From NCBI RefSeq assembly GCF_000170835.1, contig NZ_ABCP01000002.1, positions 62,001 to 126,000 on the forward strand: 64,000 nucleotides of DNA, written 5' to 3'. The first letter of the stretch is position 1. The number at the start of each line of letters is the position of its first letter. A program made the position numbers and the translations under genes. The notes under the pieces are model-generated. The model saw only the letters and a list, made by a program, of their open reading frames with translations. It was not told where the DNA came from and searched no databases. Below are positions 31,664 through 62,033 of the stretch, piece after piece. Origin of the DNA: Marinobacter algicola DG893. GTDB taxonomy: Bacteria; Pseudomonadota; Gammaproteobacteria; Pseudomonadales; Oleiphilaceae.

Positions 31664-31744
31664 GTTTAGCACTTTAGACGTCCACACAAAGTACTTAAAA
31701 CTTCAACACAAAGTACTTATATTCCACGCAAAGTGCTTAAAACT
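31664..31744. repeat. Left island end: direct repeat plus three ~21-bp repeats
   Basis: GTTTAGCACTTTA (31664-31676) is followed by the 9-bp sequence CGTCCACAC (31679-31687). Three copies of a repeat with core CACRCAAAGTRCTT then run on the plus strand, their AAAG cores at 31688, 31710 and 31730 (spacings 22 and 20). The same core occurs in reverse at the right end near 54.3-54.4 kb. Tandem sites two helical turns apart suit a recombinase or accessory protein. Confidence 0.82.
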
Positions 31745-32398: not shown

Positions 32399-33217
32399 AT
32401 GAGCAAAACCGGCCAAGCACGCGTACTCACGCCCGATCAATTCGCCCACCTTTTGAGGGTTATTCAAGAACATCGCTACCCGGAAAAGAACACAGCGCTG
32501 GTTCAGATCAGCTTCAAGCTCGGACTGCGAGTCCAGGAAATCGCACTTCTCCAAATCAAGGACGTCGCCGAGCTCGGTCCTGAAAGTTCTCGTCAGCGCT
32601 CTTTCAAACTTAAAGAAATTCTGGCGTTGCCTGCGGCTTACACTAAAGGTGCCGATGCGTTGAAGCGATCCAAATCTACCTACCAGCGGCGCCGAATCAG
32701 TTTTAGTGTTCACGATTTCCACCAGCTTGTTCAGCAAATCGAAACCTTGGCCAAGGTCGGCGCCGAGATCCAACCTGAGGATTTTTATCCTGAGGTCAAA
32801 AAACATCGTGGAAAATCGCGCGATCTTCCAATGAATGACGTTGCGCTGAGAACGGCTATGGAGAATCACCTTGCGATCCGCTTAGAGGCGTACCCTTCGT
32901 CGAAAAAGACGGATCCTTTATTCCTGACTCAAAAAGGAGGCCCCTACTCTCCTAACACTCTCCAAGAACATCTAGCTTTAATGCAGAGGCAATGGGCTGA
33001 TATTGAACGGGCCAGCTCACACAGTGGCCGACGAACTTTGATGACCAGCATTATTCACGAACAGAAAAGATCGGTTAAGATTGCTCAGAAGATAGCTGGT
33101 CACGTATCTCCGTCAACAACTCTCATCTATGACGAGCCACCGGAAGAATCAATTAAAGAAGCGCTTGAAGGTGCTGGCTATCTCTATTCCGGTGAACAAA
33201 ATAGGAGCGACTGGTAA
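32399..33217 (+). CDS. Tyrosine recombinase/integrase, catalytic domain only
   Basis: The 272-aa recombinase has the full set of active-site residues: Arg in LGLRVQEIAL near 44, His-x-x-Arg in HSGRRTL near 207-210, His in AGHVSPST near 235, and Tyr in LIYDEPP near 243. The catalytic domain starts almost at residue 10, so the usual N-terminal core-binding (SAM-like) domain is missing. It is the gene nearest the left island end and points inward. It is the best candidate for island excision and integration, perhaps with a partner that supplies DNA binding. Confidence 0.9.
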   Translation: MSKTGQARVLTPDQFAHLLRVIQEHRYPEKNTALVQISFKLGLRVQEIALLQIKDVAELGPESSRQRSFKLKEILALPAAYTKGADALKRSKSTYQRRRISFSVHDFHQLVQQIETLAKVGAEIQPEDFYPEVKKHRGKSRDLPMNDVALRTAMENHLAIRLEAYPSSKKTDPLFLTQKGGPYSPNTLQEHLALMQRQWADIERASSHSGRRTLMTSIIHEQKRSVKIAQKIAGHVSPSTTLIYDEPPEESIKEALEGAGYLYSGEQNRSDW

Positions 33218-33306: not shown

Positions 33307-36300
33307 TCAGTGAAGAACCCCCCCCTTACTCCATGACGATATAAATTTTCTTGAATCAAGCCACTGGACCAAATCTTGGTTTTCGGGGGTGGTTTCTAAT
33401 CTCGGCGAATTATACCCAGTTTTTATTTCAGAAAATGGTTTCGGTAGCTCTGCTAGCACGTTACGCACTTCGTCATCAGTCAACAGAGCGTGGTAGTGAT
33501 TGAAGATTGAGATTTGCGTTGCAATTGGTGTGGAATGCTTTATTAGGGATTGCGCAGCAGTACCAGTAAGGTTGGATAATTTAGCGTCACTTTTGCTGAT
33601 AATAGAGCCAATAAGAGCTGAACGTTCGGGAGCTCCCTCAAGCGCGTCTAAGTCCATCAATTCAATAGTTTTTAGCTTAGATGCATCATCAATGTCTGTC
33701 CTAAGAAGCTCCTCTCGAAAGTTATCATCGAGGGCAAAGCTCTCTGAATCGGCTAAGTATTTCTCGATGTTGGTAGATACGAATCGCACCTGCAATTCTT
33801 CCTTGTCAGCAAGAGCGTCAAAGTTTGCTCTGTTAAATAAAACTTTTCCCTCATCGATGAGAATTTTAATTTTTGAGGAATCCAGGCCTTCCGGGAGTGT
33901 CCTTACTGCCCTTGGCAAAGCGCGAATATACTCTTTGTATGCTACATCAGAGAGAGAACCAGTCTGGAACAAAAAGAGACGCAAATCGACTGAATCCGAG
34001 TCACTAGGTATGGGTTGCTCCAGAATAGCTTCGCGGATTCTTTCTTGATTAAGATAAACAATTAAACTTTCCGCCTCGAATCCTTCACCTTGCATGAACG
34101 CTTGGCAGTTTTCCCAAGTTGGCTGGATCACAGCTTCATTAAACAACATTGAATGCAATTCCTCAGGTACATCCGCCAACGAAGGAAGCTGAGTCGTCTG
34201 CCGCCCAAGAAAACTTCGGAGATCATCGTGATCCACTTCATTGTGGCGCACAACTGCAAGAATAGCGGCGGCATCTTCCTTCGAATTCGCAGGGAGCTCT
34301 ACGAGAATATCACGTAGGTACCGGTCGAAATCCCGTTCGATTCTTTTTAACAAGGTTTCGTTATTAACCGAACGTATGGTCGTGAAGTTCCTTTCACGAA
34401 GTGGCTCAAGGTTGTCTTCGCCCAGAATCGCTTGATAAACAAACTCAAGATTCGCGATTGTGAGTTTGAAGAGTCCCTCCTCGACCATGAAGCGTACGAT
34501 CTCAGAGTAATCTTTGATTGCAGCCAGGTCTTTGATCTCAAGGTCAAGGCAAGCAAGGCGTTTCGGTTCCAGTTCCGGTGAATTCGCCAAAATCTCAGGA
34601 AGGTTAGCCGAAACAAATTCTGGTAACTCGTGAAAATCGCCTGCGAGTTTCTTAAGCGACTCTTCCGGTAATTTCGAAACCAACTGAGTGACATGAGAGA
34701 TACTTTCAGGACTCGCTATTACAGCTGGTATTAGGCGTCTCCAAGATTCAGCCAGTCCCGAAAGAAGCTCTTCCACGTAGCAGCCGCTAGTATAATAGGC
34801 ATCGAAAAAGTCCTTGGCCGCCTCAAAGTCTGTTGAGAGATACTCGAAAAGCTTCCTCTTTTGGCCGATATACCGGCTATGGTCACTCAGCAGACTATCG
34901 ACAAGGTTGACATTCAAAACAAAGTTTTGACGGAAATCTTCGTCTCGCATCGCTGCAATGACTTCTTTTGGATTATCGATCGGAAATCCCGGATCAGGTT
35001 GGACGAATGCCCGTATCTGGATAAGAAACTTATTGTCATTGGGCGACAACCGGCCTGAGTGAAACAGTGAAGTGTATTGGTAGTAGGTATCATCGAGATA
35101 GCCCTCCAGAATCAGAAAACGGGCAAGCTCTCCGTTCTCACCGAAGCTTTCTAAAAGATCCTGCACGCGATCAGCATTCAAACGCAAAAGCTCATTAAGC
35201 TTAGTCATGCGAAGCGCTGGGATCTTTGATCTTAGTTCCCGAATTTCGCGTAGGATCTTGTCCTTACTATCAGCCGCCTTGACTTCAATCTCCTCCTTTC
35301 GTTGGTGATAGGTTTTCTGAGAGTTCACCTCTCTTTGCAAATTAGAAACATTTACCGGGTTTTGTTGGTTATTAACGACTCGGCATAAAAGATGGGGGGC
35401 CTCTATGAGTTGATCAAACCTTTCGTGGCCAACCAATTCTTTCAGCGGTATCCATGGTCCGTCGCTGCGAACGCTGGTGATGTTTGCTGGAAGCCGCTCA
35501 ATAAGGGCCATAGTGTAAATTCGCTGTAGTTCTCTTAGATCCGATGGCGTTTGGCGCTCGGCTAGTTCAAGCTTCTTTTCAAGCTCCGCGATCTCTGTCT
35601 TGTAAGTTGCTTCACCATGCCTAATAAGCTCGTCTTGAAGGTTCAATATTTCAGCAAGAGTACCGGCGCCGCGGTGCAGTTGTTCAAAATCCCTTGGATA
35701 AACGTTCTTGTAAATCAAGATTGCAAGAAGCTTATTCGCGTCGAGCAGGTTTTCACCATCTATTTCCAAATTAGCAACATAAATGGCGTACTCATTAAAA
35801 ATGTTCTGAATTAATCTCAGATCGTTAAGGTATCGAGAGACCTCTCTCAGAAACTGTTGATTGAGACGCTGGTCTAGCTCAAGTCTCCTTCCCTGCTTCA
35901 ATACCATGTCGATCGAATTCGATGTATTTATGATTGGTATGACCGGGATGATAAATTCGAAGAATTTGGTTCGATCAGTGTTGATAAACATGTCATCGCG
36001 TAGAGCGTAGAGAAACCTAATGGTACGTTTTACGCCTGCATTCTCGTTCACGAGGCTATTAATTTCGCGCAGCGTCACGAAAATTTCGGCATCTTCGAAT
36101 CGATCAATATCTTCTATAACGACCAGGTCGTAATTGGTTGATTGGAAGAAGTAGATTATTTCGTCTAGGTGACGATTTAATATGGATGCTTGGTCATCAT
36201 GTGCAGGCTTTAACTCAACGTCCTTCAACGAAATACCCCTGAGTGACAAACCTAAGCTCGCGACATAAAAGTGATGCAGTGTTACCCACAGGAATATGAA

Positions 36301-36906
36301 AGCGAATAGAAAGCTTCCCAGGTTGAACCAATTGCTGAAAGAAAACGGCCAGTTGGTGATAGAGAGATCATTGAAAAAGGAGCCGCTGACGAAATATTCC
36401 CGCTGATTAAAGACGTACCACAGAGCGACCACACCCAGCACTATGAAAAACGATTTCAAAAACGACCAAAAACCCGGCGACTGAATTCTTTTGAACCGCG
36501 ATAGTGGGAGCTTGTTGGCATCAGCACCATACAACATCTGTTGCAGGATACTTCTCTCAATCTCTTGGCGGCCCACCTTGTCGCTTCCCGAGTCGGCTTC
36601 CGGAACGAACGCAGCGAGAGAAATACGGAGCGCAGGCCGCGGATACTTTCTCAAGAATGATTGGATGATACTGCTCTTTCCCGATCCGTAAGGCCCCGTC
36701 AATGCAATGTTGGAGACCTTCGGATTGTTCGTCGCAAACAGAATCGCCTCGGAATATACGCCGGACTCGTCAGCCTTATCAGTTGGCGCGAGGTCAACGA
36801 ACTTTGATTGCATCTCGGCGGAGCGGTATTTGCTTTCCAGGCAAGACACTATTCCATAGAGGCCGTCGGCAAGCTGGCGAGTTAGGGAGATCACTGTTTC
36901 TATCAT
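33307..36906 (-). CDS. YobI/KAP-family membrane P-loop NTPase
   Basis: The 1199-aa protein has Walker A GPYGSGKSS at 71-79, two transmembrane helices (about 145-170 and 200-225) inserted in the NTPase domain, Walker B VVIEDIDRFED near 262, and sensor RFLYALRDDMF. This layout is that of KAP/YobI NTPases, with a long helical C-terminal region of about 850 residues that may be a sensor or repeat domain. The family is common in defence islands and is suspected to be antiphage; no mechanism is certain. AGGA 4 bases upstream supports the ATG. A small gene precedes it by 18 bp. Confidence 0.85.
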   Translation of the reverse strand: MIETVISLTRQLADGLYGIVSCLESKYRSAEMQSKFVDLAPTDKADESGVYSEAILFATNNPKVSNIALTGPYGSGKSSIIQSFLRKYPRPALRISLAAFVPEADSGSDKVGRQEIERSILQQMLYGADANKLPLSRFKRIQSPGFWSFLKSFFIVLGVVALWYVFNQREYFVSGSFFNDLSITNWPFSFSNWFNLGSFLFAFIFLWVTLHHFYVASLGLSLRGISLKDVELKPAHDDQASILNRHLDEIIYFFQSTNYDLVVIEDIDRFEDAEIFVTLREINSLVNENAGVKRTIRFLYALRDDMFINTDRTKFFEFIIPVIPIINTSNSIDMVLKQGRRLELDQRLNQQFLREVSRYLNDLRLIQNIFNEYAIYVANLEIDGENLLDANKLLAILIYKNVYPRDFEQLHRGAGTLAEILNLQDELIRHGEATYKTEIAELEKKLELAERQTPSDLRELQRIYTMALIERLPANITSVRSDGPWIPLKELVGHERFDQLIEAPHLLCRVVNNQQNPVNVSNLQREVNSQKTYHQRKEEIEVKAADSKDKILREIRELRSKIPALRMTKLNELLRLNADRVQDLLESFGENGELARFLILEGYLDDTYYQYTSLFHSGRLSPNDNKFLIQIRAFVQPDPGFPIDNPKEVIAAMRDEDFRQNFVLNVNLVDSLLSDHSRYIGQKRKLFEYLSTDFEAAKDFFDAYYTSGCYVEELLSGLAESWRRLIPAVIASPESISHVTQLVSKLPEESLKKLAGDFHELPEFVSANLPEILANSPELEPKRLACLDLEIKDLAAIKDYSEIVRFMVEEGLFKLTIANLEFVYQAILGEDNLEPLRERNFTTIRSVNNETLLKRIERDFDRYLRDILVELPANSKEDAAAILAVVRHNEVDHDDLRSFLGRQTTQLPSLADVPEELHSMLFNEAVIQPTWENCQAFMQGEGFEAESLIVYLNQERIREAILEQPIPSDSDSVDLRLFLFQTGSLSDVAYKEYIRALPRAVRTLPEGLDSSKIKILIDEGKVLFNRANFDALADKEELQVRFVSTNIEKYLADSESFALDDNFREELLRTDIDDASKLKTIELMDLDALEGAPERSALIGSIISKSDAKLSNLTGTAAQSLIKHSTPIATQISIFNHYHALLTDDEVRNVLAELPKPFSEIKTGYNSPRLETTPENQDLVQWLDSRKFISSWSKGGVLH

Positions 36907-37649: not shown

Positions 37650-38390
37650 TCAGTGAAAATCCACGCCTTCCAAAAAATGTGCCCCGTCGAACGTTAGCAC
37701 ATTCGTGTACACCTCTGTGGATTCGACGCTCCGATGCCCGAGGAGTTGGCTCACAAACTTCAGCGGCCGTCCGTGCAGCAGTAGATGCACCGCGAAGCTG
37801 TGCCGGAATGTGTGGCACCCGATCTTGAACGGCGGATCTCCCCCCACCTGCTCAATCAGCCTGTCGATATTTGCGCTGACCGCCTGGCGCGTGATCGGAA
37901 AGATCCGCTCGTCCTTCCGAAACTTCCCCATCCACAGATAGCTCTGAATCCGGGTCTGAAAGTCTCTATCCAGAATTGGGATAAACCGCTTGGGCGAGCG
38001 TTGCAGGCTGCGTTTGCTCGGCCGCCCTGCCCCTTGTTTGAGCGTCTTGAGGATCACCCCGAAGTCGTAGCCGTCGTCGTGGAAACTCGCCGACGTGATC
38101 GCCAGCACCTCGGAGACCCGCGCGCCGGTGCACCACATCAGATCCAGGATCAGCCGGTGCATGGGGTGGGTCTCGGCCTCCAGCAGCGTCAGCACCTCGG
38201 GCTTGAGGAGGTACTTGGGCATGGTGTCGAGGGTCTCCAGCAAGAGCGGCCGCTTGTCGATGAGCCGGTCCCAATCGATGGTGACTTCCTGGATCGGGAA
38301 CGAGACCAGCGGACGCTCCTGGAAGCCGAGCGAGCGGGTGTTTCGAGACGGGCGCGGAAATGACCGCGCGCTGGTGATGGATTTTGACAT
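37650..38390 (-). CDS. Second tyrosine recombinase
   Basis: The 246-aa tyrosine recombinase has Arg91 (CTGARVSEV), His193/Arg196 (HTFRHS), His219 (LGHRSV) and Tyr228 (EVYTNV), all in place. The N-terminal DNA-binding part is short (about 60 residues). The gene is visibly more GC-rich than its island neighbours, suggesting a separate origin. GGAGGGG precedes the ATG. It might resolve multimers, move a nested element or cooperate with the recombinase at 32.4 kb. Confidence 0.9.
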   Translation of the reverse strand: MSKSITSARSFPRPSRNTRSLGFQERPLVSFPIQEVTIDWDRLIDKRPLLLETLDTMPKYLLKPEVLTLLEAETHPMHRLILDLMWCTGARVSEVLAITSASFHDDGYDFGVILKTLKQGAGRPSKRSLQRSPKRFIPILDRDFQTRIQSYLWMGKFRKDERIFPITRQAVSANIDRLIEQVGGDPPFKIGCHTFRHSFAVHLLLHGRPLKFVSQLLGHRSVESTEVYTNVLTFDGAHFLEGVDFH

Positions 38391-40927: not shown

Positions 40928-41212
40928 TTACTCGGGCTCTCTGGCAAAGTACCGAGCGGCCTTTTTTAGGATATCCCGCTCCTCTTCAATCCGGCGCATC
41001 TGGGCCCGTAGCCTTAGAATCTCGCTCTTGGCTTCGACCAATTCGGCAGCCTGTTCGTCAGACTTATCCGGTTTCACGGCCTTAACCCATTTGTAGAGGC
41101 TGTGAGTCGATACTCCCAGTCGTTGCGACACTTCGGCGACGGTATAGCCCCGCTCCAGCACTTGTCGGACCGCTTCGTCCTTGAATTCAGGGGGGTAACG
41201 TTGGCTGCTCAT
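40928..41212 (-). CDS. IS3-family transposase OrfA (HTH)
   Basis: The 94-aa protein has the HTH_Tnp_1 fold (YPPEFKDEAVRQVLERGYT, VAEVSQRLGVSTHSLYKW) and a leucine-zipper-like end (AQMRRIEEERDILKKAARY). The slippery AAAAAAG within its 3' end permits fusion to OrfB. Confidence 0.93.
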   Translation of the reverse strand: MSSQRYPPEFKDEAVRQVLERGYTVAEVSQRLGVSTHSLYKWVKAVKPDKSDEQAAELVEAKSEILRLRAQMRRIEEERDILKKAARYFAREPE

Positions 41213-41232
41213 GGCAATTCCTCCTATGCTCT

Positions 41233-41312
41233 AATCATAGGCTAGGCGTGTCCACTGCACCGGGGTAAGTCCAATCATAGGCTAGGCGTGTCCACTGCAC
41301 CGGGGTAAGTCC
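41233..41312. repeat. Tandem 40-bp duplication of the IS right end
   Basis: Two identical 40-bp units (41233-41272 and 41273-41312) each end GGGGTAAGTCC, the IS terminal sequence. The outer copy is the one bounded by the TAG duplication. Internal duplication of an IS terminus is unusual and could have come from an aberrant transposition or slippage event. Confidence 0.92.
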
Positions 41313-41384
41313 ATAGGCGCTTCCAAACCGTCCGTGGAAACGGGGTAGAACCCGGCGACCTTTTTTGCAATCAAAGAGGTTCCA

Positions 41385-42044: not shown

Positions 42045-42447
42045 CCACGCATCGACAAATTCGAAGAGGCTCGCTCGAATTTACGTCTGCTCGAAATCAA
42101 TGCCCCCCCCGGACGTTATAAGAGTCGTCAGCCCCCATATGAAATTTCTGCCGTAGGCAGGTATTACTTGGGTTCATAGAGGGTTCTATCCCGCTTCGAC
42201 GGATGGCTTTAAATCGGTGGTGAGCTTACCCCACTCTACTGCACCGGGGTAAGTCCAGAAAGATCAAAGCACCTAGGAGGATCTCTCGCTGGATAGTATA
42301 GACACTAACCTAGGACCGCCAAGGCTATCAGCTTAACAAATTGTGGTGTCCCACAGTAAGGCCGAGAAGTGCTAATAGTAGTGACTAATGCATCATTTTA
42401 AAAATGAGCTGCTGACCTGAAAATCCAATAATAAGGACCTCTACCCT
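42045..42447. other. Gene-free stretch containing an IS-end relic
   Basis: Only a 20-bp relic of the neighbouring IS terminus is seen here (ACTGCACCGGGGTAAGTCCA, ending at 42258). The rest has no gene. A promoter for the following gene is probably close to 42.4 kb. Confidence 0.6.
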
Positions 42448-44793
42448 ATGAGTGGCAGGGAATGGACAGAATCTGAATGCTGGGTTTGGGAGCAAATCCG
42501 CGCGGGCAAAGAAGCAGATTTTAATGCCCGTGAAGGGAGAAATGAGCCGCTTCTAGCACCTATCGATACGTTTGGCTGGACTGACAATCGAAAGCTTAGT
42601 TCAAGATTTTTTAGTGAACTCCTTTTTACAGAATCTCTATACTCTTGTATTTCTCGCAAAGGAGTAAGAGTCATAGGGGCTTGGTTTGAGGACGGCGTAG
42701 ATCTTGAATCCGGCCGTCTCAATTGCGACCTATGGCTGGACCTCTGTCGATTTGACGATTCTGCAAATTTAAACGGCGTAAGGATTGAAGGTAGCCTATC
42801 CCTGGAAGGATCATTTTTCTCTATTCCTAACAAAGGCCTAGATATAGCATACGCAAAAATTGGCGAGATCCTCACGCTTAGCAATATTAGAATTAGGGGG
42901 GAACTCAAAGGGAGAGGTGTCGAAGTTGCAAAAACCTTGTTTCTAAATGACGTTGTCTGCAACAAAGATGTTAGTTTGGATTACTGCAAGTTTGGAGAAA
43001 ACCTCAAGTTAACTGGCGGGTCCTTTCACGAAAACTTAGATATCGAATCGACCGAAATTTTTGGTTCATTATTGTTGGACTGTTCTGCAAAGGTCAGGGG
43101 TTCAACCTTCATGGAGTCCATAAAAGTTACAGATAGTATCTTTATGGATGAAGCAAGCTTTAGGTCGGTTAATTTGCTAGGTGCGAAGGTTGGAAACGAT
43201 ATATCCCTCGAAAAATCAACAATTTCTGATGAACTGTTGATGCAATCCGTTGAAGCTCGAAATCTAATCATGGACTCCGTCATCAGCCTGGAAGTAGTTG
43301 ACCTGATAAATGCCAAAATTAGAGGCAAAGTTAGGCTATCCAAAGCAATGGTTGGCGGCGAGATTTACATGGCTTTCATGGAGATCGGCGGATCTTTGCG
43401 AATGGATGAAGAGAGCAAATTTCGAAGCATCAACTTAAATAGTATAAGAATTGGAGGAGACGTTTTCCTCTCCGGGGCCGATGTGACAGGGAGTCTTTCA
43501 ATCGACAGTGCCGAAATAGCAGGTAGTCTCTTTCTTGACGAAGCAGCAAACCTCAGCGATGTACACTTGGCGTCCACTAAGATTCGAGCTCAACTAAGTT
43601 TTTCCGGCTCTAGGGTTACCGGTTTTCTCAACATGAACAGCGTGGAGGTTACGGGCAGCCTAACTATGGAAGAAGGAGCCAGCTTCGGACAGGTAGAACT
43701 GATGGGAGCGCATATTGGCAGGCAGATTCGGCTGTCCGGATCGGTTTTTCGAGGTTCGTTGAGCATGGAGTCGATTGATGTAGCGGACTCAATTTTGGCT
43801 CATAATAATTGCTCATTTCGCTCAGTGATTCTTGCTTTAGCTAATGTTGGCCGGGATATACGTTTTTATGGCGCAATCATTGAGGAGGACCTAGATCTTA
43901 GCGGCGCAAACGTCAGAAGCGAACTGAGAATAGAACAAAGCGTTTTGAATGGCTCGTTGCTCGCTAAATTCGTTCGAATAGAGATGAATCTCTTTCTCTG
44001 TGGCAATGATCTTGGTTCAGTCAATCTCAGCGGCGCTCAAATTCGGGGCGAACTCTGTTTAGGAGCAAAGGTAAAACCACAAAATTTGTGGACCACTGAC
44101 GAAAACCCTATCTTCAAGCTCCGGAACGCACATGTGGGTGCGTTACAAGATAGGAAAGACGGCTGGCCCGAGGTCGTTCAGCTAGAAGGCTTCGTTTACG
44201 ATTGCCTCGGCGGTGGAGATGGAGAGGAAGGGTGGATATTCAAAGGCAGCGGAGGCGAGCAAGGAGACTTTAACATGTTAACTCGAGATACTGAATGGTA
44301 TCTCGAGTGGCTTTCAAGAGATCCTGTCTACAGCCCTAAGCCCTACGTCCAACTTGCTGAAACCTTCAAAGCGGCTGGAGATTCAACGAAATCCAATTTA
44401 GTTCTTTATGATAGTCGTCGGCGCGAGCGAATCGAGGCCTGGAAAAGAGGCCACTATTTAAAGTGGTTCGGATCTATGTTGCTCAATATTACTATCGGAT
44501 ATGGCTTGGGAGCGCGCTATTTCCGTGTTTTGGTCTGGGTAATAATGTTTGCTTCAATAGGCGCGTTGTTACTTTGCCATTTTGACCATGCCGAAAATGG
44601 CCTTGCACAAGATTTTTCAGGTAGTTTTATATACAGTCTTGACATACTCCTTCCTGTCGTTGACCTGAAAAATAGTGAGGAGGTTTCGCTTTCGGGGGGA
44701 GTCGCACTCTACTTTTACTTCCAAAAACTTCTTGGTTGGATTCTTGGATCGTTTCTGGTCGCTGGCTTAGCTGGATTAACGCAGAAACAGTAG
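42448..44793 (+). CDS. Pentapeptide-like beta-helix protein with C-terminal membrane domain
   Basis: The 781-aa protein consists of degenerate pentapeptide-type repeats from about residue 90 to 540 (runs such as VNLSGAQIRGELCLG, GDVFLSGADVTGSLSI), predicted to form a right-handed beta-helix. A conserved linker follows (YVQLAETFKAAGDSTKS, LYDSRRRERIEAWKRG), then a membrane part with about three helices and a pore-like segment (SFIYSLDILLPVVDL). Similar proteins are labelled 'membrane-associated oxidoreductase' without evidence. It is convergent with the STAND NTPase 30 bp away. A membrane effector role is inference. Confidence 0.75.
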   Translation: MSGREWTESECWVWEQIRAGKEADFNAREGRNEPLLAPIDTFGWTDNRKLSSRFFSELLFTESLYSCISRKGVRVIGAWFEDGVDLESGRLNCDLWLDLCRFDDSANLNGVRIEGSLSLEGSFFSIPNKGLDIAYAKIGEILTLSNIRIRGELKGRGVEVAKTLFLNDVVCNKDVSLDYCKFGENLKLTGGSFHENLDIESTEIFGSLLLDCSAKVRGSTFMESIKVTDSIFMDEASFRSVNLLGAKVGNDISLEKSTISDELLMQSVEARNLIMDSVISLEVVDLINAKIRGKVRLSKAMVGGEIYMAFMEIGGSLRMDEESKFRSINLNSIRIGGDVFLSGADVTGSLSIDSAEIAGSLFLDEAANLSDVHLASTKIRAQLSFSGSRVTGFLNMNSVEVTGSLTMEEGASFGQVELMGAHIGRQIRLSGSVFRGSLSMESIDVADSILAHNNCSFRSVILALANVGRDIRFYGAIIEEDLDLSGANVRSELRIEQSVLNGSLLAKFVRIEMNLFLCGNDLGSVNLSGAQIRGELCLGAKVKPQNLWTTDENPIFKLRNAHVGALQDRKDGWPEVVQLEGFVYDCLGGGDGEEGWIFKGSGGEQGDFNMLTRDTEWYLEWLSRDPVYSPKPYVQLAETFKAAGDSTKSNLVLYDSRRRERIEAWKRGHYLKWFGSMLLNITIGYGLGARYFRVLVWVIMFASIGALLLCHFDHAENGLAQDFSGSFIYSLDILLPVVDLKNSEEVSLSGGVALYFYFQKLLGWILGSFLVAGLAGLTQKQ

Positions 44794-44823: not shown

Positions 44824-47800
44824 TCATTTGAGCCGTTTTGGCTGCGAAACGTCCAGAACGAACACATCGATTAGTCCCGTGAGCTCCGGCGGCAACTTTG
44901 CTCCGATGTTGTGTTTGAGCTCCAAGGCGCTCTCAATAGGATGTATTTTGCGACCTGCAACTTTTTCCTCCGCGCCAAACCAGATGACCAGGAAAATACC
45001 CTGTTGCTCTGCGTCGGGGTGGATAGAGTAACGTTCGTAAAGTTGGGCGGAAGCGGCGGTGTACAGTTCTTTATGCCACTGCCCTTTTACCTCTGTAACC
45101 AGTAGTCGTCTTTTACCGCCAATCAACTTGGACACCGTGAAATCACTCCGGTTTGCGTTCTTTAACTGATGTTCCGGTGTCACAGAGATATTTTGCGGCT
45201 CAAGTCTCAGATTGAGTCGTTCAGCAATTATCTCAGTAGATCGCACTTCGTCTAGTCGATCACCTTTCGCATAAAAGCGATCTGCGGAGTTGAATTCTCC
45301 ACCATCTATGGCTTTCTGGAAGTCTTGGAGCTCTTGGAGCACGAGTTGACGCAGACCTTCCACCGTAACTACCTCGTCGCGGTCCAGTCGATTTACGATT
45401 TCCTGGGGCGTAGGCGGTTCGAAATCTCGCAGTGCTTTCTTCCTGACTTGACCGGCATGTATGCTCTTCAAGTCCCTGTGCAGGTCTGAAAAACGCAGAT
45501 CGACAAGAAGCCGGTCGAGAACCGGAATCGCATCATCCGGATCATCTGAGCTCATTGACCAGATCACTGTGGTCAAGAAGCGGTATGCGTTTTCCTCTTT
45601 GGGGCTTTCCGTCCCCCAGTGGTTCGGCAGGTCTACCTTTGGCCATTGGCCAATGAGGGCCTCTAAAATGGCTTCAATCTTGCGTGATGCGAGCCTGGGC
45701 CAATAGGAATAATCGTTAAGGTTGATTTGCCCAGACCGCCCATGGAGAAGGAACACAGTGTTTTTATCGGCTTTGAGCCAGTCCCAGTATGTTTCGGGTG
45801 CGTCGTCAAGGAAGTACCACGCGCGCACGAGCCAGAATGTTCTCTTCTGTTCAATATCTTCACTGCCAGTCGGGTTGGGCCAGTTGGACATGAACTCTGT
45901 GCAACGCTCCGCGATGATCTTTTTAAGGTCTTCGCGATTGCCATACCGAGCAGCGACCTCGAATAACGTATCTATTGGCCCAAGAGCAAGCTCATCGAAA
46001 CGCCTCAGCCATTCAACAGATAGCGCGGCGCGCGAATGACTGAAGGCCTCGTCGTAGCGTAGAAGCCCAACCTCAGGGTGAGAACATTCCGACTGGGCCA
46101 GCTGTGGCTCAACGTACTGCCGGAGAAAAGCCTCTGCACTCGCGGTATCAGGAAAGATTAGACGGTCAATTTCGGTCTTTAGCGGTTCACGGTCTTCTTC
46201 GGAAACGGCACTGTAGCCCATGCTAATGTTGGTTCTTAGCGCTTTCAGGAGCGGAAGATCGATGTCTTCCAAGTTGCCTTTAAAACGCATGATCTCCAAG
46301 CAAGCCGCATAAAGGATCGTCTCCGAGTGCTGATACTTCGAATCACACTGTAGTTTAGCGAGCCCGAGTAAATCGGGAACGTGCGGAGCGATGAAGTCGA
46401 GGCAGTTTCGTAGCGCGTTCCGAACAATCGTTTCATCGCCAAACTCGTGCTCAATTTTGTCTGGCTCCATGAGCACAAGCTCTGCAAAACGAACTAAGCA
46501 ATGCCAATGACGCCCCTCTTCGACAAGCTCCCGGTTGTTTTGGACATACTTGATATTTGCTGCACGGATATTATCTTCTTTCCTGAGACGGCGCTTCACC
46601 CTTCGGGAATATCTGAAACGCATTATTCCGTGTTCTCGCTGGAATTGCGCTTCAGCACTGTTGGCTCTTGCCCATTCTCGCATGAATAAGGGTTTCTCGA
46701 GTGCTTGCTCGCGCATATGGCGCCGCAGGCTATCTGGGCCTCGACTTTCCTTGTTTCGATGGAACTTATGGTGAGCTAAAAAGCTCGCCCACAAGTCCGG
46801 GTTGTCGCTCTCAAATGCAAGATCCACTATGAATTGATAGTCATCGGTGTGAAAAGAAAGGCCAGAGTGCGAGTGCCAGTCGAACTTATCTATCTTAGTC
46901 TGAAAAATCTGGTCACGGTCAGTCAGCTTTCCGAATACATGACCAATAATTCCTTGGCGTAGTGCGTCGTCCTTTTGCAGCACTTGGACTGTCTTGCTTT
47001 GGTCAGCGGATTTGTTTTCATGGAAGTTCAGGTTTCCGATCCATCGCCAAACTCGTATTGGATCAAATGGCGGCTTGGCCAGAGCGAAGTACCGATCCAG
47101 CATGGCCCCAACGATCTTGCTTATGCCGTTTAGGCAATCGCACTCGTAAGCCTTCTTTCCGCATTTGCAGGCTAGGTCTTTGGTCAGTTCATCTAAGAGC
47201 CACTCGATAGTCGCCAAGTCCTGACCTGCGATCAAACGTTTCACGAAGTGGCGGGCACCTATTGTGCGCTCACGACGCTCTTTGTGGCCCGGGTAGAGGT
47301 TTGCACAGACCCGGAAAAAGCCTGCTCGATAGGCCCGCCCGAATGTTTCCGGGCCTAGGGTTTCGATAGCCTCAGCAGCCACCCTTAACGACGTATGGCT
47401 TGCCTCAAAAATCAGAACAGCCAAGTCAGCGTGATGGTCATGGCCTACTATTTCGAGCAAACACCTACTTGCCAACAAGCGAGTGTTCTCGCTTTCGTCC
47501 GGCGTTAAAGTAAGTTGACGCAACTCTTTTATTAACTGCTTGATTGCTGGCGACCCCGCCAAAAGTTCAAGGACCAGATTGCGCAAGTGTCCATCACCGC
47601 CAGTAACGAGAAGAGGTTTAATCTCGCCCACAACGTCTTGGGTGAAGAAGCCCGCAACACTGAACCTGCGCCAGAAATCCCCTCTTCGGAAGTGAGGGTC
47701 TTTGGCCTCAATTTCTTTCAATCGATATACAAGTAGGCGCTTTGACGAACGTTCAAGCTGGGAAGGGTCGCCGTTCGCAAGCACTGCGTATGGGTCAAGT

Positions 47801-48858
47801 TCGATTGCAGCTCTTTCTACAGGCATATTGCCTAGCGATGCCATCCAGCCCAGCAGCCCCCGGAGTTCATCTCGCACTGTGGAGTTCGGGGCGATAATAG
47901 GCATGCACTTAGGCAGAGTTAGAGGGTCCGCCGGGTCTGCTATCCGCTTGGTAAGATAGCCTGCTGCACAGTATTCGGCGACGATTTTGTGAACCGGGCG
48001 ATGTTGATCCGCGCTGTCGCCGGGCTTAAAAAGTCGAGTTGCCAGAATTCCATCAGCCAATGTGTCGCTGCTAAACAGTGACACCAGCAAAGGATACATC
48101 CGGTCTTCAGTGGCTTCGCTCGTACCAACGCCTTCAGAACCGGACAACAAGAGTTTGGCGAAAACTTCCGACGAGAGATCGACTTTTTGAGTGGTCGAAA
48201 GTGGCGGATTGGTTCTGACTACATTGGTGTTCGCTTCCTTCGCTAGGCGTTCGACCGCTTGTGCGAAGATTGATCGTTTGTCGGTGAAACGTCTTTCGCT
48301 CTCGATATAAGCGTCAGCAAAAAGTTTCAGAAACTGGGGGTTTGGGAGAAGCGCGTCTAAATCAAATCGAGAAACTTCGGTTTGGAAAACTGCGAAGTCC
48401 TCTCCTTCCAGGTGATGTTCAAAAATCGCCCGCTGTTCCGCCTCATCAAACTCGCATAGTCTAACGACCAGAGGTGGGCACCCGAGAAAGTCTTTGAATG
48501 CATTCGTAGTAGCGTTGTCCCACTCACTGGAACGACTCGACAAATAAACGTGGGTCGGGTTGGCCGCCTCAACCTGGGTCAAAAGTTTATAGATGCCGGA
48601 AGCGTCCACTTTTGCCAGCTCATCGAATGCGTCTATCACTAGGGGCGTATACTTTGATTCTGCTCCTACGTATCCGAATTTACTCGCTGTAACGACTTTT
48701 GTGCCCAACTTTTGGGCAAGGCTCCCCATGAGTTCGGTTTTCCCACCGCCGGGTTCAGCCAGAATGACAACGTAATTCGAAGCAGCCAGCAGCTCTGCCT
48801 CCGTGTATATCTTGTCATTGCTCGATAGTCTGCGTGGAAGGTAGAAAGGCGAACTCAT
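44824..48858 (-). CDS. STAND-type NTPase with C-terminal PD-(D/E)XK-like nuclease domain
   Basis: The 1344-aa protein has an N-terminal P-loop domain: Walker A AEPGGGKTEL at about 34-43, Walker B PLVIDAFDEL near 72-81, and VYLSSRSSEW as a sensor-like element. A long helical region follows, probably a sensor, with a Cys cluster CKCGKKAYECDC near 562-573 that could bind zinc. The C-terminal 110 residues show RSDFTVS and LLVTEVKGQW, the D and ExK of a PD-(D/E)XK nuclease, then YTAASAQLYERY. NTPase-sensor-nuclease chains of this type resemble antiphage STAND proteins such as Avs, but with the effector at the C-terminus. No close family is recognised. Confidence 0.8.
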   Translation of the reverse strand: MSSPFYLPRRLSSNDKIYTEAELLAASNYVVILAEPGGGKTELMGSLAQKLGTKVVTASKFGYVGAESKYTPLVIDAFDELAKVDASGIYKLLTQVEAANPTHVYLSSRSSEWDNATTNAFKDFLGCPPLVVRLCEFDEAEQRAIFEHHLEGEDFAVFQTEVSRFDLDALLPNPQFLKLFADAYIESERRFTDKRSIFAQAVERLAKEANTNVVRTNPPLSTTQKVDLSSEVFAKLLLSGSEGVGTSEATEDRMYPLLVSLFSSDTLADGILATRLFKPGDSADQHRPVHKIVAEYCAAGYLTKRIADPADPLTLPKCMPIIAPNSTVRDELRGLLGWMASLGNMPVERAAIELDPYAVLANGDPSQLERSSKRLLVYRLKEIEAKDPHFRRGDFWRRFSVAGFFTQDVVGEIKPLLVTGGDGHLRNLVLELLAGSPAIKQLIKELRQLTLTPDESENTRLLASRCLLEIVGHDHHADLAVLIFEASHTSLRVAAEAIETLGPETFGRAYRAGFFRVCANLYPGHKERRERTIGARHFVKRLIAGQDLATIEWLLDELTKDLACKCGKKAYECDCLNGISKIVGAMLDRYFALAKPPFDPIRVWRWIGNLNFHENKSADQSKTVQVLQKDDALRQGIIGHVFGKLTDRDQIFQTKIDKFDWHSHSGLSFHTDDYQFIVDLAFESDNPDLWASFLAHHKFHRNKESRGPDSLRRHMREQALEKPLFMREWARANSAEAQFQREHGIMRFRYSRRVKRRLRKEDNIRAANIKYVQNNRELVEEGRHWHCLVRFAELVLMEPDKIEHEFGDETIVRNALRNCLDFIAPHVPDLLGLAKLQCDSKYQHSETILYAACLEIMRFKGNLEDIDLPLLKALRTNISMGYSAVSEEDREPLKTEIDRLIFPDTASAEAFLRQYVEPQLAQSECSHPEVGLLRYDEAFSHSRAALSVEWLRRFDELALGPIDTLFEVAARYGNREDLKKIIAERCTEFMSNWPNPTGSEDIEQKRTFWLVRAWYFLDDAPETYWDWLKADKNTVFLLHGRSGQINLNDYSYWPRLASRKIEAILEALIGQWPKVDLPNHWGTESPKEENAYRFLTTVIWSMSSDDPDDAIPVLDRLLVDLRFSDLHRDLKSIHAGQVRKKALRDFEPPTPQEIVNRLDRDEVVTVEGLRQLVLQELQDFQKAIDGGEFNSADRFYAKGDRLDEVRSTEIIAERLNLRLEPQNISVTPEHQLKNANRSDFTVSKLIGGKRRLLVTEVKGQWHKELYTAASAQLYERYSIHPDAEQQGIFLVIWFGAEEKVAGRKIHPIESALELKHNIGAKLPPELTGLIDVFVLDVSQPKRLK

Positions 48859-48923
48859 AAGCGCAAATTATTATGTGTTGAACCGCACCAGATCGGAGAT
48901 ACTCCGGAGACAATTTTTCTAGG

Positions 48924-49354
48924 TCAGGCAGCGTCAACTGCCCCATCCTGTTGGTGATAGTACGCGATTTCTCGTTTAGTTGGGGTAAACTTCCTGCCGA
49001 ATATGGCATGGGCAATCGCTGAGCCAGTCAGTCCCATCCAGAATGGTATCCACCCTGCCCTCGTTCTTGATTCAGCCAGATCTGGAAATAGCCAGGCCAA
49101 TGGCCCCCCCACCCCACCTGATTCGTTGCAAAGAATTTTTAATATGGGATCAGAAGTGGCCATAGAGGCATTGAAGCAGTACCAGGGCCCGTACACGCTA
49201 GAAAGCTTCGATGAAAGGATCCCTGCAACCCCAACAGGTGGAAAATTCTAATCATCAGTGCAATCACAACAAGGGTGTTTACAGTGACAAGAAACGCTAA
49301 TCTGCGTATCCTTGTTATTACAATGTAGGTACAGAAGCCAGCAATTTCCAACAT
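48924..49354 (-). pseudogene. Small membrane-protein gene, probably frameshifted
   Basis: Two minus-strand frames join well if one frameshift near 49.25 kb is allowed. The first part is hydrophobic (LAFLVTVNTLVVIALMI). The second part has GVAGILSSKLSSVYGPWY and GWIPFWMGLTGSAIAHAIFG. Together they read as one protein of about 140 residues. No family is recognised. The frames may be chance, so this is tentative. Confidence 0.4.
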
Positions 49355-49381
49355 ACGATGATCATGATTAAGGGGGCTCGC

Positions 49382-50008
49382 ATGAGCAACCAGAGCAAAA
49401 AGCAGGGCAAGACCGGGCAACACAAAAGACACTCAAGCCCGACTCACCGGAGCCACCGGGGCGCCCGGGTAAAGGGTGGGTCAATGGGATTTCAGGCAGG
49501 CGGTTCCTGGTCGTCACGCAGCCTTGGGGTGAGTGATCGCAGGCTGGTGCAGGCGGTGACCAAAGATGAAGCGTTCAATGTCCGCACGACGGTTGAGGTG
49601 CGGGATCGCGCCCAGGCGGTCTTCGAGGAACTTGGTCTGTCATTATCTGGCGCGGTGAACCTGCTGATGGCACGGCTGATCAGCACCCGACGACTCCCAT
49701 TTATACCGGAGCCGCTTACAGAAGCTGATGGCTCACCGGCACTGGCTGAGGCGGGCCAGGCCACAGCAGTCCGTATCCGTGTGGATGCAACACTCAAGCA
49801 CCAGGTGACGGTGTTGCTTCAGGCGATGGGGTTTAACCCAACGGTCATCGTCAATGCCTTTTTACGGACGGTCGCGGCGCAACGAGATATCCCCTTTGAC
49901 TATCGCGCCCCCAATGAAGAAACCCGGCGTGCAATGGCCGAACTGGATCAGGGGCAGGGCGAGAGGTTCGATTCTGTGGATGCTCTGTTCAGCGATCTGG
50001 AGGATTGA
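49382..50008 (+). CDS. RelB/DinJ-type antitoxin with two ribbon-helix-helix domains
   Basis: The 208-aa protein carries two RelB/DinJ modules in tandem: NVRTTVEVRDRAQAVFEELG (about 62-105) and AVRIRVDATLKHQVTVLLQA (about 130-180), each ending in a (LPFIPE / IPFDYRAPN) motif. Typical antitoxins have one. The acidic tail RFDSVDALFSDLED would bind the toxin. A basic Ser/Gly-rich N-terminal stretch precedes the domains. The gene overlaps the YafQ-like toxin gene (TGATG). Confidence 0.85.
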   Translation: MSNQSKKQGKTGQHKRHSSPTHRSHRGARVKGGSMGFQAGGSWSSRSLGVSDRRLVQAVTKDEAFNVRTTVEVRDRAQAVFEELGLSLSGAVNLLMARLISTRRLPFIPEPLTEADGSPALAEAGQATAVRIRVDATLKHQVTVLLQAMGFNPTVIVNAFLRTVAAQRDIPFDYRAPNEETRRAMAELDQGQGERFDSVDALFSDLED

Positions 50009-50277
50009 TGCTGGCGCTCAAGCAAGGGAGTCGATTCAAAAAAGATATGAAGGCGTGTCGGAAGCAAGAGCTAGACTTGCAACAACTCAAGGATGTTATC
50101 GAGACACTCCAGAAAGGGGAGCCGCTAGAAGATAAACATCGGGATCATGGTCTTTCCGGGCACTGGAATGGCTGGCGGGATTGCCATATTGCACCCGACT
50201 GGGTGTTGATCTATCGGGTGGAGGGAGACGAACTCGAGCTTGCCCGAACCGGATCACACGCGAAGCTGTTCGGATAA
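50008..50277 (+). CDS. YafQ-family mRNA interferase toxin
   Basis: The 89-aa RelE-superfamily toxin has the YafQ core GHWNGWRDCHIAPDW and LIYRVEGDELELARTGSHA, which includes the catalytic His residues near the end. It is the cognate toxin of the upstream RelB-like protein. GGAGG 4 bases before the ATG favours 50008 over the TTG at 50005. Confidence 0.93.
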   Translation: MLALKQGSRFKKDMKACRKQELDLQQLKDVIETLQKGEPLEDKHRDHGLSGHWNGWRDCHIAPDWVLIYRVEGDELELARTGSHAKLFG

Positions 50278-50619
50278 CCAGATCAAAACATCATTCTGCA
50301 CCCTGCTACCTTTTTTGTCCGTGTAAAGTTCAAATCGATGGTTGAAGTCGGCATCTTGCCAGATGATGTTTTAGTGGTGATCTAAGCACGCATTGAGTCA
50401 AAGGGAGGCTGATATCTAGCGATGGAAACGCTTAAAGAATTCGAGCTTTGTCACCCCTGTGTGGACCTACATAAGATCCCGCATTTATACCGATTCAAGA
50501 GCATCAAGGGAGCGGAGGATTCACACCTTGAAGATTTTTTTGTCCACGGAAAGCTTTATCATCCATTACCCACTCAATTAAACGATCCTTTCGAGTGCAA
50601 ACTGACCTGCCCCCAGTGT

Positions 50620-51465
50620 TTAATCCAACTGCTCCCTAGTAATGTCCGTTACTTTTGAATCTGTTTTTCCAAGTCGGAGAGCGGAGGCAAATTCCAGGGG
50701 TGTCTGATACCCCAGGGATGAATGCGGACGCTGCTCATTGTAGTCCAATCGCCAGTTACTGATTTTCTCCCGGGCATGAGCAAGGTCCCGGAACCAGTGT
50801 TCATTCAGGCACTCATCCCGGAATTTTCCGTTAAAGCTCTCGACGTAACCATTCTGCATCGGCTTTCCGGGCTGAATCAGCTTCAGTTCAACGCCATGGC
50901 GGTATGCCCATTGATCGAGCGCTCTGCCAGTGAATTCCGGCCCCTGGTCGGTTCTAACGGCCTTCGGGTAGCCTCGGAAGGCCGCTATACCATCCAAGGT
51001 GCGGGCGACCTGTTCACCTGAAATGCCCATGGCCACGGGAATGTCGAGGCACTCCTTCGTGAAGTCATCCACAATCGTCAGGCATTTGATCCTGCGGCCG
51101 TTGGCCAAGGAATCCATCACAAAGTCCATGGACCACGTGTGGTTCGGCGCACCAGGCAACACCAATGGCTGCCGTTCGACCATCACACCTTTACGGCGCT
51201 TGCGTTTGCGGACGGCCAGGCCGGCCTCTCGGTAAAGTCGATAAACCTTCTTGTGATTCACCTCAGCACCCTCACGACGCAGCAACTGGTGAACACGCCG
51301 GTACCCGAACCGGCGGCGCTCGAACGCAATGGCTTTGATGCGCTCTGTCAGCTCACGCTCCTCTGGAGAGCGCTGAGACTGATATCGCATCGTTGCGCGG
51401 GATAACCCGACGAGTGAACAGGCTTTGCGCTCGGATATCGTCGTCTCCGACAGCATGGTGCGCAC
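50620..51465 (-). CDS. IS407-like transposase OrfB (DDE)
   Basis: The 281-aa frame shows the catalytic triad: Asp in [13 protein letters not shown], Asp in [12 protein letters not shown] and Glu in [27 protein letters not shown] is the usual C-terminal motif. The frame is open upstream into the end of OrfA and is probably expressed by frameshifting. Confidence 0.94.
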
Positions 51466-51488
51466 AGCCTCGCGCTTGTTCCCGACGG

Positions 51489-51758
51489 TTAGTACTTTCG
51501 GTTGAGGGCGGCCTTCAGGGCTTCTGTATCCAGCATGGACTCGGCCAGCAACTTCTTGAGCCGGGCGTTCTCTTCCTCAAGGGCTTTCAGGCGACGGGCT
51601 TCTGAGACTTCCAGGCCGCCATACTTCTTGCGCCAGGTGTAGAAGGTGGCATCCGAGATGTTGTACTTCCGGCACAGCTCTTTGACCGGAAGGCCGGCCT
51701 CGGCTTCCTTGAGAATGGGAATGATCTGTTCTTCGGTGAATCGCTTCTTCATGTTCAT
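51489..51758 (-). CDS. IS407-like transposase OrfA
   Basis: The 89-aa HTH protein ([39 protein letters not shown]) has a leucine-rich end ([19 protein letters not shown]). The true start may be the Met at 51752. It is the DNA-binding part of the transposase. Confidence 0.93.
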
Positions 51759-52616
51759 CGTCCTCTCTGGTGATGAACATTACTAAGATCAGGATGGATT
51801 AGAAAGTTGGGTGCAGGTCATGTACGGCCCTCCTCCGCCTCAGAGGCCAGGGAGCTTCGGAAATATCTCGCCAAACAGCTCCGCAGTCACCAAGGCATGC
51901 CCTGGAAGCAAGCTAAGGAACAGGCGAAATTGATGATGACCGATCAGAATCGAACGATCGAAATGTTTAGGAGAGCAGCTGCAACAACCTACGGTCGAGC
52001 TCGACTATGCAGTTTCACCACTTCGAAAGAAAACCTCTTGTTCTGGTCACACTATGGAGACTCACACCAAGGCATGTGTCTTGAGTTTGATTCAGCTGGT
52101 GGCCCGATGCGAAATGCCCGACAGGTAAAATACGACGATTATTATCCGAATGTTGATGTTCCACAACCAGCCGATGAACGCGCTGCAAAACCGGCTTTGG
52201 TTAAGTCGCGGAACTGGAAATATGAAAGCGAGTATCGTAGCTTCATCATCCCTGACATTACAGAGGACGAATCCAAATGGATTCGATTCATCGAGCTGGC
52301 ACCATCAAGTCTCACAGGCATCTATTTCGGAGCCTGTGCTCAGGATAAAGACAAAGATCGAATTTTGGACCTGGTGGAACGTGGAATCTTTGATCCAAGG
52401 ATCTACGATGCGGAATTAAGTGAGTCGACCTTTTTTCTCAAGTTTAAAGAAAGAACTTGTGCATGATTTTCTGAATCGAAGAAGGTGTTCATCGAGGACC
52501 CAACTTTTTCAGCGGTGAAGACTAGGCTATCGGGATCAACAGAGACATATTGGACAGGTCACGAATCCCTCCAGGGGCGATGAACGGACGTCCTGATTTT
52601 TTGTTTATTGTCACTC

Positions 52617-52693
52617 GGGGTTGGCTGCTTATGACGATTCCTCCTATGCTCTAATCATAGGTTAGGAGCGTCATGCGTATCGGGGGAAGTCCA
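52617..52693. mobile_element. Relic of the right end of an IS related to the 40-kb element
   Basis: This stretch matches most bases of the orfA start plus right terminus of the element at 40-41 kb. ATTCCTCCTATGCTCTAATC and a final GGGGAAGTCCA are shared, with differences in between. No transposase remains. It marks a past insertion or deletion. Confidence 0.75.
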
Positions 52694-52777
52694 TCGCCCA
52701 CATACTAGTACCTCCTAAGCTACAAGACACTGGAAATCCAGACTGGTGGAGAATGTGCGTTTTATTGGAGGAAGTGT

Positions 52778-53983
52778 ATGACCAACAAAAATGCAGTTCT
52801 TATTAATCCCACCGATACAGTGGTTTCGCTCGGGGATCTCGCTTACGCTGGAACGCTTCTCATGGATTCTAGGCCTCCCGAGCATCGTTTAATTATGGCG
52901 CTTGCGAGCTTATCCCATTTGTTGACCGCTGTTGTTCTCTCGGAACGTATCCTCGTCATTGGCCACGAGGACAACATGACTGAGGCCCCAAGTTCCTTGA
53001 TGTACTCATTATTAAAGAAGCATTGCAGAGTGCTGAATATTTCCTTAACAGATGAGGCACTTACAGCAGGTGCAGCAGTCTGGAATGATCCTGTTAAAGA
53101 GTTTGGGACAAGAACCTGTGCTGTGGCATTCGAGTCAGAACACCTGTTAGTTACGGGGCGGCCATTACCAGAACCAACCCGAATGTTCATAAGTGATCTA
53201 TTGGATGCTCCGGGACTGTCTTCTTTGGCCTTTGACGCTCTGCCTCTGTTTCAAGGTGTCAGGGCTACTCTAGCAGAGTATTCGATATCACAGGCGTTAT
53301 CGCTGCCATTCGCGCCGAATCCCGTACTTTCCGTACCAATTTTGCTTAACGAGTTACGAGCAAATACCGCGAAAGAGGACCTTGTACGTTTAGTCGACGA
53401 AATGCGCCATGAGACCGCAACGTTGTACGATCAAAGCCGAGCAGGCGCGACTTTGGATCTTCATCGAAATGCGAACATCTACTGTCTACGGCTACCTGCG
53501 ATACTAATGTCGATAATAAACCAGTCAAAGAGTCTTCCCGATGCGGTGAAGATAGCTGCCGACATTAGCAATACGAGTGAGGCGGCGGCTTTCCGAAATT
53601 GGTGCAAGAATATGGAGACACTTGCTGACCCTAAGACGTATGTCGAACGCCTCCAGGCGGCGAGGATGACCTTGGAGCGCCTGGGACGCACTATCGATAC
53701 GGGTGCTGGATCGGAACTTACGGTGACTGCCGGACCACTCAGTACACAGCTGCCTGTTCCTTCAATAAAACGGGCAGTCCATTGGGCGAACGTGGATATC
53801 CGATTCGTGAAGCCACGACGTTTTCTTCTAAACATGCTTTCGCAAGCACGGCAAATGAATTCTGTCGATGAAAAGCTAGCAAACATTCTTGGTGTAGATA
53901 GGCGCTCGGCGTTAAATGCGGCCGCGCTTTTCGTGAAAAGTTCCAAAGAGATCTTGGATGCCAATGTTAAGCGAATCCATTAA
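52778..53983 (+). CDS. Unrecognised 401-aa protein
   Basis: The protein is soluble-looking, helical and without signal peptide or transmembrane helix. LVRLVDEMRHETATLYDQSR and ERLQAARMTLERLGRT look like helical segments, and the C-terminus is basic. No family or catalytic motif is recognised. GGAGGAAG 5 bases upstream supports the ATG. It is the last cargo gene before the right island end. Confidence 0.75.
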   Translation: MTNKNAVLINPTDTVVSLGDLAYAGTLLMDSRPPEHRLIMALASLSHLLTAVVLSERILVIGHEDNMTEAPSSLMYSLLKKHCRVLNISLTDEALTAGAAVWNDPVKEFGTRTCAVAFESEHLLVTGRPLPEPTRMFISDLLDAPGLSSLAFDALPLFQGVRATLAEYSISQALSLPFAPNPVLSVPILLNELRANTAKEDLVRLVDEMRHETATLYDQSRAGATLDLHRNANIYCLRLPAILMSIINQSKSLPDAVKIAADISNTSEAAAFRNWCKNMETLADPKTYVERLQAARMTLERLGRTIDTGAGSELTVTAGPLSTQLPVPSIKRAVHWANVDIRFVKPRRFLLNMLSQARQMNSVDEKLANILGVDRRSALNAAALFVKSSKEILDANVKRIH

Positions 53984-54282
53984 AGCTTGAACATTAATGG
54001 GTTCCTCGGATTTTCAGTATCCGTCAAGAATTAGCCGCTGAGTATCGTGTGGTGGTCAACTAGCCCTAGACAGCACTTCGAACTGGGTTTTTCCAACTCG
54101 GGGGGGGTGGACTTAGATACGAGGTCAGGGTCACTTATCAAGTTCACCTATAAACTGTCACCAATTCCTTAGACACGCCCAATTGTACCTTCTTTTAGAA
54201 GTGTCGGCAGTGATTGGATAGAACTCGCCCCGTTGACTGCGATGTCCGTAAAATTCGGCTCCTGTGACCTGCGCCGGACGAC
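53984..54282. other. Gene-free stretch before the right island end
   Basis: About 300 bp with no convincing gene. A run of eight Gs at about 54102 is followed by TGGACTTAGATACGA, which weakly resembles the left terminus of the IS at 40 kb but is too short to call. Confidence 0.5.
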
Positions 54283-54427
54283 AAATTTAGTACTTTGTGT
54301 GGAAACTGAAAGCAACTCGATATTCTAGAATTTACTTTAAGTTTGTTTAGCACTTTGCGTGGAATCTCATGGGTAAGTCTCTGAAATGCGGTTTCAGAAG
54401 TTTAGTACTTTTCTTGGTCGTCCACAC
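54283..54427. repeat. Right island end: inverted copies of the end repeat plus direct repeat
   Basis: Two good copies of the end repeat lie on the minus strand (core AGTACTTTGTGTGG from 54290; core GCACTTTGCGTGG from 54350), with one weak copy near 54334. A terminal arm GTTTAGTACTTT (54400-54411) is followed by CGTCCACAC (54419-54427). The orientation is opposite to the left-end repeats. TTACGCTAAA follows outside and supplies the second arm of the rebuilt attB. Confidence 0.8.
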
Positions 54428-61824: not shown

Positions 61825-62033
61825 GATACAAAGCCCTCCTTCTTCGATACAATTTCCGCATTTCCCGGTCCAGCCCTTGCAGTCAACCCTCTAGCGCTGT
61901 TTTAGCCTTGATTACCCATTGACTCAATAAAGGCGTCCACCTCCGACTGCGTGCGTGTGGGCCATGTTGGGCTCCTGAGGTTTTCATGAATCTGTTTCCC
62001 CATTTACTACCAGTAACTATTTAGGCTCTAGTG

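Follow-up and report, generated by a model that had tools for sequence, protein, structure and literature searches.

An EruA-family protein with a predicted N-terminal NACHT switch and C-terminal nuclease in a putative mobile element of Marinobacter algicola DG893

Among the described STAND nucleoside triphosphatases (NTPases), the Avs proteins and bNACHT25/32 place the effector N-terminally and the sensor C-terminally, and the available portions of a 2025 article state this effector-first order for all STAND NTPases (PMC12169576). The N-terminal effector of bNACHT25/32 is a PD-(D/E)XK nuclease which is required and degrades DNA, according to the same portions (PMC12169576). Excerpts from other articles describe NTPase-first arrangements, namely DUF1703 and one Mrr-NACHT fusion (PMC1913061), CDC6/ORC-clade NTPases carrying a C-terminal restriction endonuclease (PMC10853773) and NACHT and further STAND modules followed by GT4 as a predicted C-terminal effector (PMC8195603). 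A further NACHT system, DS-8, includes a metallophosphatase in the excerpted DefensePredictor report (PMC13092281). Here, we describe a gene at 44824..48858 on the minus strand of a 64,000-nucleotide stretch (the window; positions 62,001 to 126,000 of contig NZ_ABCP01000002.1) of the Marinobacter algicola DG893 genome, whose product matches the EruA family and is predicted to have the switch first and the nuclease last.

Family assignment and domain plan

The gene is a single open reading frame (ORF) of 1344 codons and a stop. The plus-strand translation of the interval is riddled with stops and the minus strand is the coding one; an earlier note, made from the DNA letters alone, had proposed a chain of this length here with the strand unspecified. 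Homologues at E ≤ 1e-3 numbered 1061 of 7993 scored candidates and the ORF is therefore not a chance one. In NCBIfam release 20.0 the protein matched NF058535, a curated equivalog model named 'NACHT domain-containing antiphage protein EruA', with a score of 1463 bits (cut-off 1000), and the match covers residues 13-1338 of the protein and positions 10-1318 of the 1318 in the model, which is nearly the whole model. Judged by this match, which brings out no difference from EruA, the protein belongs to a family that has a name already, and its presumed antiphage function is taken over from the family name. The match also supports the earlier note's suggestion of a candidate defence protein. The name EruA has been given as well to a SlyA-type regulator which, from the part of the report available, is apparently unrelated (PMC12839154).

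Residue conservation was counted over 79 aligned homologues, comprising 71 of the 78 distinct loci kept from species genomes, five additional loci (L002, L003, L006, L007 and L008) and three distant members added by hand (L004, L009 and L010). Seven loci without an ORF of at least 1200 residues were left out (L040, L061, L066, L067, L072, L075 and L103). One of the two patterns used in the locus search includes the ExK residues, and for this reason two further sets were checked, consisting of 120 listed database proteins and eight rows fetched by family-model or plasmid search. The motif residues are kept in all three sets, gapped rows of the 120 aside. Interrupted or shortened relatives were observed at L067 (8001-13719), L075 (8001-12029) and L085 (8001-13355), with longest ORFs of 930, 810 and 1298 residues respectively; the long match spans of L067 and L085 suggest inserts.

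Residues 1-461 (47476..48858, minus strand) are predicted to form a NACHT NTPase, a winged helix and a helical domain. The Walker A motif GGGKT lies at residues 37-41 (48736..48750, minus strand), with K40 in 78 of the 79 homologues and a gap in the remaining one, and the Walker B motif LVIDAFDE at residues 73-80 (48619..48642, minus strand), with D76, D79 and E80 in every row. A conserved arginine after the fourth strand and a winged-helix histidine are features of the STAND/NACHT family; R109 and H290 are kept in 79/79. The alignment thus holds the Walker A, Walker B, arginine and histidine residues of STAND/NACHT proteins, and the NACHT-winged helix-helical fold is present in the predicted structure, in agreement with the P-loop and STAND-type NTPase that had been proposed. 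Pfam nSTAND3 (16.2 bits, gathering score 27.2) and NACHT (13.6 bits, gathering score 26.7) both matched below their gathering scores. Foldseek matched the N-terminal half to Avs4, and the vertebrate NLRs NLRC4, NLRP3 and NOD2 share 11-13% identity with it. Residue 1 of the EruA model is matched to the point where the NTPase of NLRC4 begins, chain residue 125, so that the protein begins without an N-terminal effector or adaptor. On this model, the front half is predicted to be NLRC4-like and to resemble the human inflammasome switch.

At the other end, residues 1204-1336 (44851..45249, minus strand) form a predicted PD-(D/E)XK nuclease domain. E1256-V-K1258 (45085..45093, minus strand) is found in 79/79 homologues; D1239, E1256 and K1258, likewise in 79/79, lie on the second and third strands of the structure model, which has the helix-three strands-helix-strand core of the superfamily. 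E1256 and K1258 are also present in 120/120 of the listed proteins and in 8/8 of the fetched rows. The predicted active site consists of E1204, D1239, E1256, K1258 and Q1272. The D...EVK motif and the C-terminal PD-(D/E)XK-like nuclease of the earlier note therefore agree with the alignment and, for the fold, with the model.

The middle region, residues 462-1190 (45289..47475, minus strand), is a putative sensor. Structure models covered its two ends, up to residue 560 and from residue 1060 onwards, and residues 407-560 and 1060-1190 are mostly helical in them. Within it, a CxC-x6-CxC cluster at residues 564-575 (47134..47169, minus strand) has all four cysteines (564, 566, 573 and 575) in 75 of the 79 homologues; they are lost together in the distant rows L004, L007, L009 and L010, and may form a metal site. 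The cysteine cluster noted earlier was thus recovered. Of the proposed long helical sensor-like region, the helices are seen in the modelled stretches, whereas its sensor role is our supposition.

Comparison with HyoA and other STAND systems

HyoA (NF058534, 'NACHT domain-containing antiphage protein HyoA') is homologous to EruA from end to end. The hhalign comparison of the two gave a probability of 99.2 and, for this single pair, an E-value of 7e-20 over 1199 columns at 17% identity, and the C-terminal domains alone gave a probability of 95.4 and an E-value of 1.9e-8 with the catalytic residues in register. The two C-termini share the pattern E..D..ExK..QLxxxY in register, and in HyoA the residues E1293, D1327, E1342, K1344, Q1362, L1363 and Y1367 occur in 120/120 of the proteins listed (120 of the 1096 found). 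The protein studied here scores only 75.5 bits against the HyoA model (cut-off 1200), over residues 324-781, which places it in a separate family, and HyoA is longer (about 1430-1450 residues against 1344). Of the 194 genomes of the order, four carry HyoA matches above the cut-off of that model. By sequence comparison, these two named antiphage families share a plan of predicted N-terminal NACHT and C-terminal nuclease.

Like bNACHT25/32 of bNACHT clade 6, EruA combines a STAND/NACHT switch with a PD-(D/E)XK nuclease, both predicted in EruA, but the order is reversed. An Avs protein has its effector N-terminal to the STAND NTPase; in EruA the P-loop already stands at residue 37 and the predicted nuclease comes last, so that the contrast with Avs drawn in the earlier note agrees with the order given in the available text of PMC12169576. 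No Avs family in PADLOC-DB matched at E ≤ 1, the range of Avs types in that library being unchecked. DUF1703, the Mrr-NACHT fusion, the CDC6/ORC-endonuclease proteins, ATPase-Shedu and GT4 behind NACHT resemble EruA in having the NTPase first and a predicted or shown effector last. The available portions of their reports mention no NLRC4-like half followed by a middle region of about 730 residues, and it is by these descriptions, rather than by sequence, that they are set apart.

Distribution and genomic setting

EruA was found above cut-off in 4 of the 194 genomes of the order, including the present one, while at E ≤ 0.001 there were matches in 21/194, many of them short and weak. Within the genus, a relative occurs in 2 of 61 genomes, again including this one. 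The species genomes yielded 135 stretches encoding relatives, from which the 78 distinct loci were kept; these are mostly from Pseudomonadota, with others from Thermodesulfobacteriota and Cyanobacteriota and single contigs from Kiritimatiellota, Verrucomicrobiota and Opitutales. The nearest relative is that of Marinobacter maritimus CK47 (93%), and the Marinobacter halophilus copy, at 40%, suggests separate acquisitions within the genus. Relatives were present on 29 of 72,556 plasmid records, of which 19 were typed as conjugative; in only 4 of the 29 did one match span 80% or more of the query, and in only 2 did identity reach 60% or more. One of 50,697 phage records carried a distant partial relative (25% over half the query). 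A Salmonella diarizonae relative (L043, 3990 bases) had no match in 5,426 Escherichia coli genomes by distant blastn, a search blind below about 65-70% DNA identity. A FastTree tree of 72 rows was used for the patchy distribution only, since the program warned of long branches, unusual composition and mixed bins; it grouped Pseudomonadota, Cyanobacteriota, Thermodesulfobacteriota and Kiritimatiellota within a single starred set of 17. The distribution is patchy.

Neighbouring genes were counted with a simple ORF caller. No other family recurs beside EruA at over ten of the 78 species-genome loci (104 loci were compared overall). A two-gene system was considered and rejected, given that same-strand neighbours within 50 bp occur upstream at 10/66 and downstream at 9/67 loci and that 15 of these 19 are shorter than 125 residues. 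EruA has no conserved partner gene and is apparently a single-gene system. For defence genes, 261 flanking ORFs from 69 loci were considered (no more than two per side, each of 120 codons or longer), of which 144 were under the size limit and 140 were aligned and scanned. Among the families listed (25 of 324 from PADLOC and 25 of 144 from Pfam) there were a few members of restriction type, namely Specificity_I (2), GajB-like (2) and ResIII (3), together with integrase (3) and HipA (2), amid housekeeping families.

In the window, the gene lies in a putative integrative element of about 22.7 kb beside what seems to be an insertion-prone site. The island has TTTAGYACTTTKYGTGG in inverted orientation on its two sides, with two to three copies at each end, at 31682..31740 on the left (motif on the minus strand) and 54286..54417 on the right (motif on the plus strand); they are possibly the recombination sites of a tyrosine-recombinase element. 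A scan with a 17-base motif gave five matches with at most two mismatches against 0.06 expected, the largest shuffle count being one; the motif was derived from the right-hand repeats, so the two exact right matches are not independent, while the two left matches and the third right one are. Related copies of TTTAGYACTTTKYGTGG occur near the EruA gene of M. maritimus CK47. With that genome the window shares a block of 94% DNA identity (44827..49103, minus strand) consisting of the EruA gene and about 245 bp upstream; a second comparison put its limits at 44827-49097. Beyond this block, the 40-kb CK47 stretch matches the window only at the integrase (32398-33187) and at 54275-54364.

On the left, the flank of the island is collinear, with gaps, with genome G225 up to about 31550. 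A block like the right repeats (54268-54427) stands near selO, about 0.6 kb off in G210; in G225 about 4.6 kb of other DNA (L149, 3656-8288) separates the repeat block from the selO flank, which are contiguous in the window, and this extra DNA is a sign of an insertion-prone site. Window positions 50000-54268 had no match in the compared selO-region stretches of G225 and G210. As G225 carries the two window flanks 2.7 Mb apart, it offers no clean empty site. selO is present at 73% identity or more in 45 of the 61 genus genomes and has some match in 60/61, many of these being only a paralogue of about 35%.

The island encodes two tyrosine recombinases, one near its left end (32399..33217, plus strand; Pfam Phage_integrase, 55 bits) and another at 37650..38390 (minus strand; 65 bits), and two rve-type transposases. 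With the putative inverted terminal repeats and the patchy distribution, these genes favour the mobile island of the earlier note. A second candidate defence protein is a YobI/Tmn-like P-loop NTPase of 1199 residues (33307..36906, minus strand; Pfam YobI-ATPase, 403 bits), whose PADLOC Tmn match (281 bits) spans residues 31-651 and hence the first half only. Between EruA and the right end lie a RelB-type antitoxin gene and a YafQ-type toxin gene with an overlap of a few bases (49358-50277, plus strand) and a DUF2971 protein (51807..52466, plus strand; PADLOC candidate system PDC-S31). Another island protein matches alpha/beta-hydrolase, though below the threshold. A pentapeptide-repeat protein of 781 residues (42448..44793, plus strand; Pfam Pentapeptide_3) is convergent with EruA, whose stop codon lies some 30 bp beyond its end, and appears, by eye, to have a membrane-spanning C-terminus; the convergent orientation rules it out as an operon partner. 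Short repeats stand beside two transposase loci (41200-41313, 42235-42257 and 52620-52693), among them a tandem 44-base direct repeat at 41230-41313, of which the 84% copy at 52620-52693 can fold into hairpins.

Proposed mechanism and its alternatives

We consider it fairly probable that the protein is an NLR-like single-protein phage sensor whose predicted C-terminal PD-(D/E)XK nuclease would then cut DNA. At rest it would be autoinhibited, with a nucleotide held in the NACHT pocket. Binding of a phage product by the middle region would lead to nucleotide exchange and oligomerisation, the C-terminal nuclease domains would be paired or released to degrade DNA, and phage production would stop, probably at the expense of the cell itself (abortive infection). 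The analysis shows the parts, their conservation, the distribution and the family name, while the folds are predictions; for the trigger, the oligomer, the substrate and the fate of the cell we draw on the analogy with bNACHT25/32.

Several results count against this proposal. Foldseek returned zero matches for the nuclease model at E ≤ 0.001, and of 56 C-terminal pieces only 2 gave a Pfam match to a PDDEXK family, and a weak one. No PADLOC-DB 2.0.0 family matched the protein at E ≤ 1, no solved chain matched it by sequence and our literature search did not find the experimental antiphage paper behind the EruA name. The defence-neighbour scan had no control set and no enrichment is claimed from it. 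The sensor role is a guess, with models spanning only the ends of the middle region, and both phage protection and nuclease activity are predictions.

An ATP-gated, restriction-like enzyme is a rather unlikely alternative; it would itself bind foreign or modified DNA, the NTPase gating or moving the C-terminal nuclease, and the cell would be spared. A version keeping the same receptor logic with a C-terminal domain that cuts RNA instead of DNA seems improbable to us. A main target of plasmids or other mobile elements instead of phages we regard as very improbable: the relatives on 29 plasmid records, 19 of them conjugative, would fit it, although in only four does one match cover 80% or more of the query, as would the location of the gene in a putative mobile element, but the family bears an antiphage name; the single distant relative among the phage records is uninformative about targets.

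Two points are new here: the predicted fold resembles NLRC4 but lacks an N-terminal effector, and the reversed plan is common to EruA and HyoA. We put forward tentatively, at somewhat less than even confidence, that the two form one back-to-front NLR-like superfamily, with NACHT first, no N-terminal effector and a killing nuclease behind the sensor array. If so, activation would have to proceed by way of the sensor end; a bound ligand might, for instance, release the C-terminal nucleases or bring them together in pairs. The reversed order makes it testable whether the effector of a STAND receptor must adjoin the N-terminus of the NTPase ring in order to fire. EruA offers for this purpose a conserved, transferable and apparently single-gene system, with K40, D76, E1256, K1258 and the cysteine cluster as targets for mutation.
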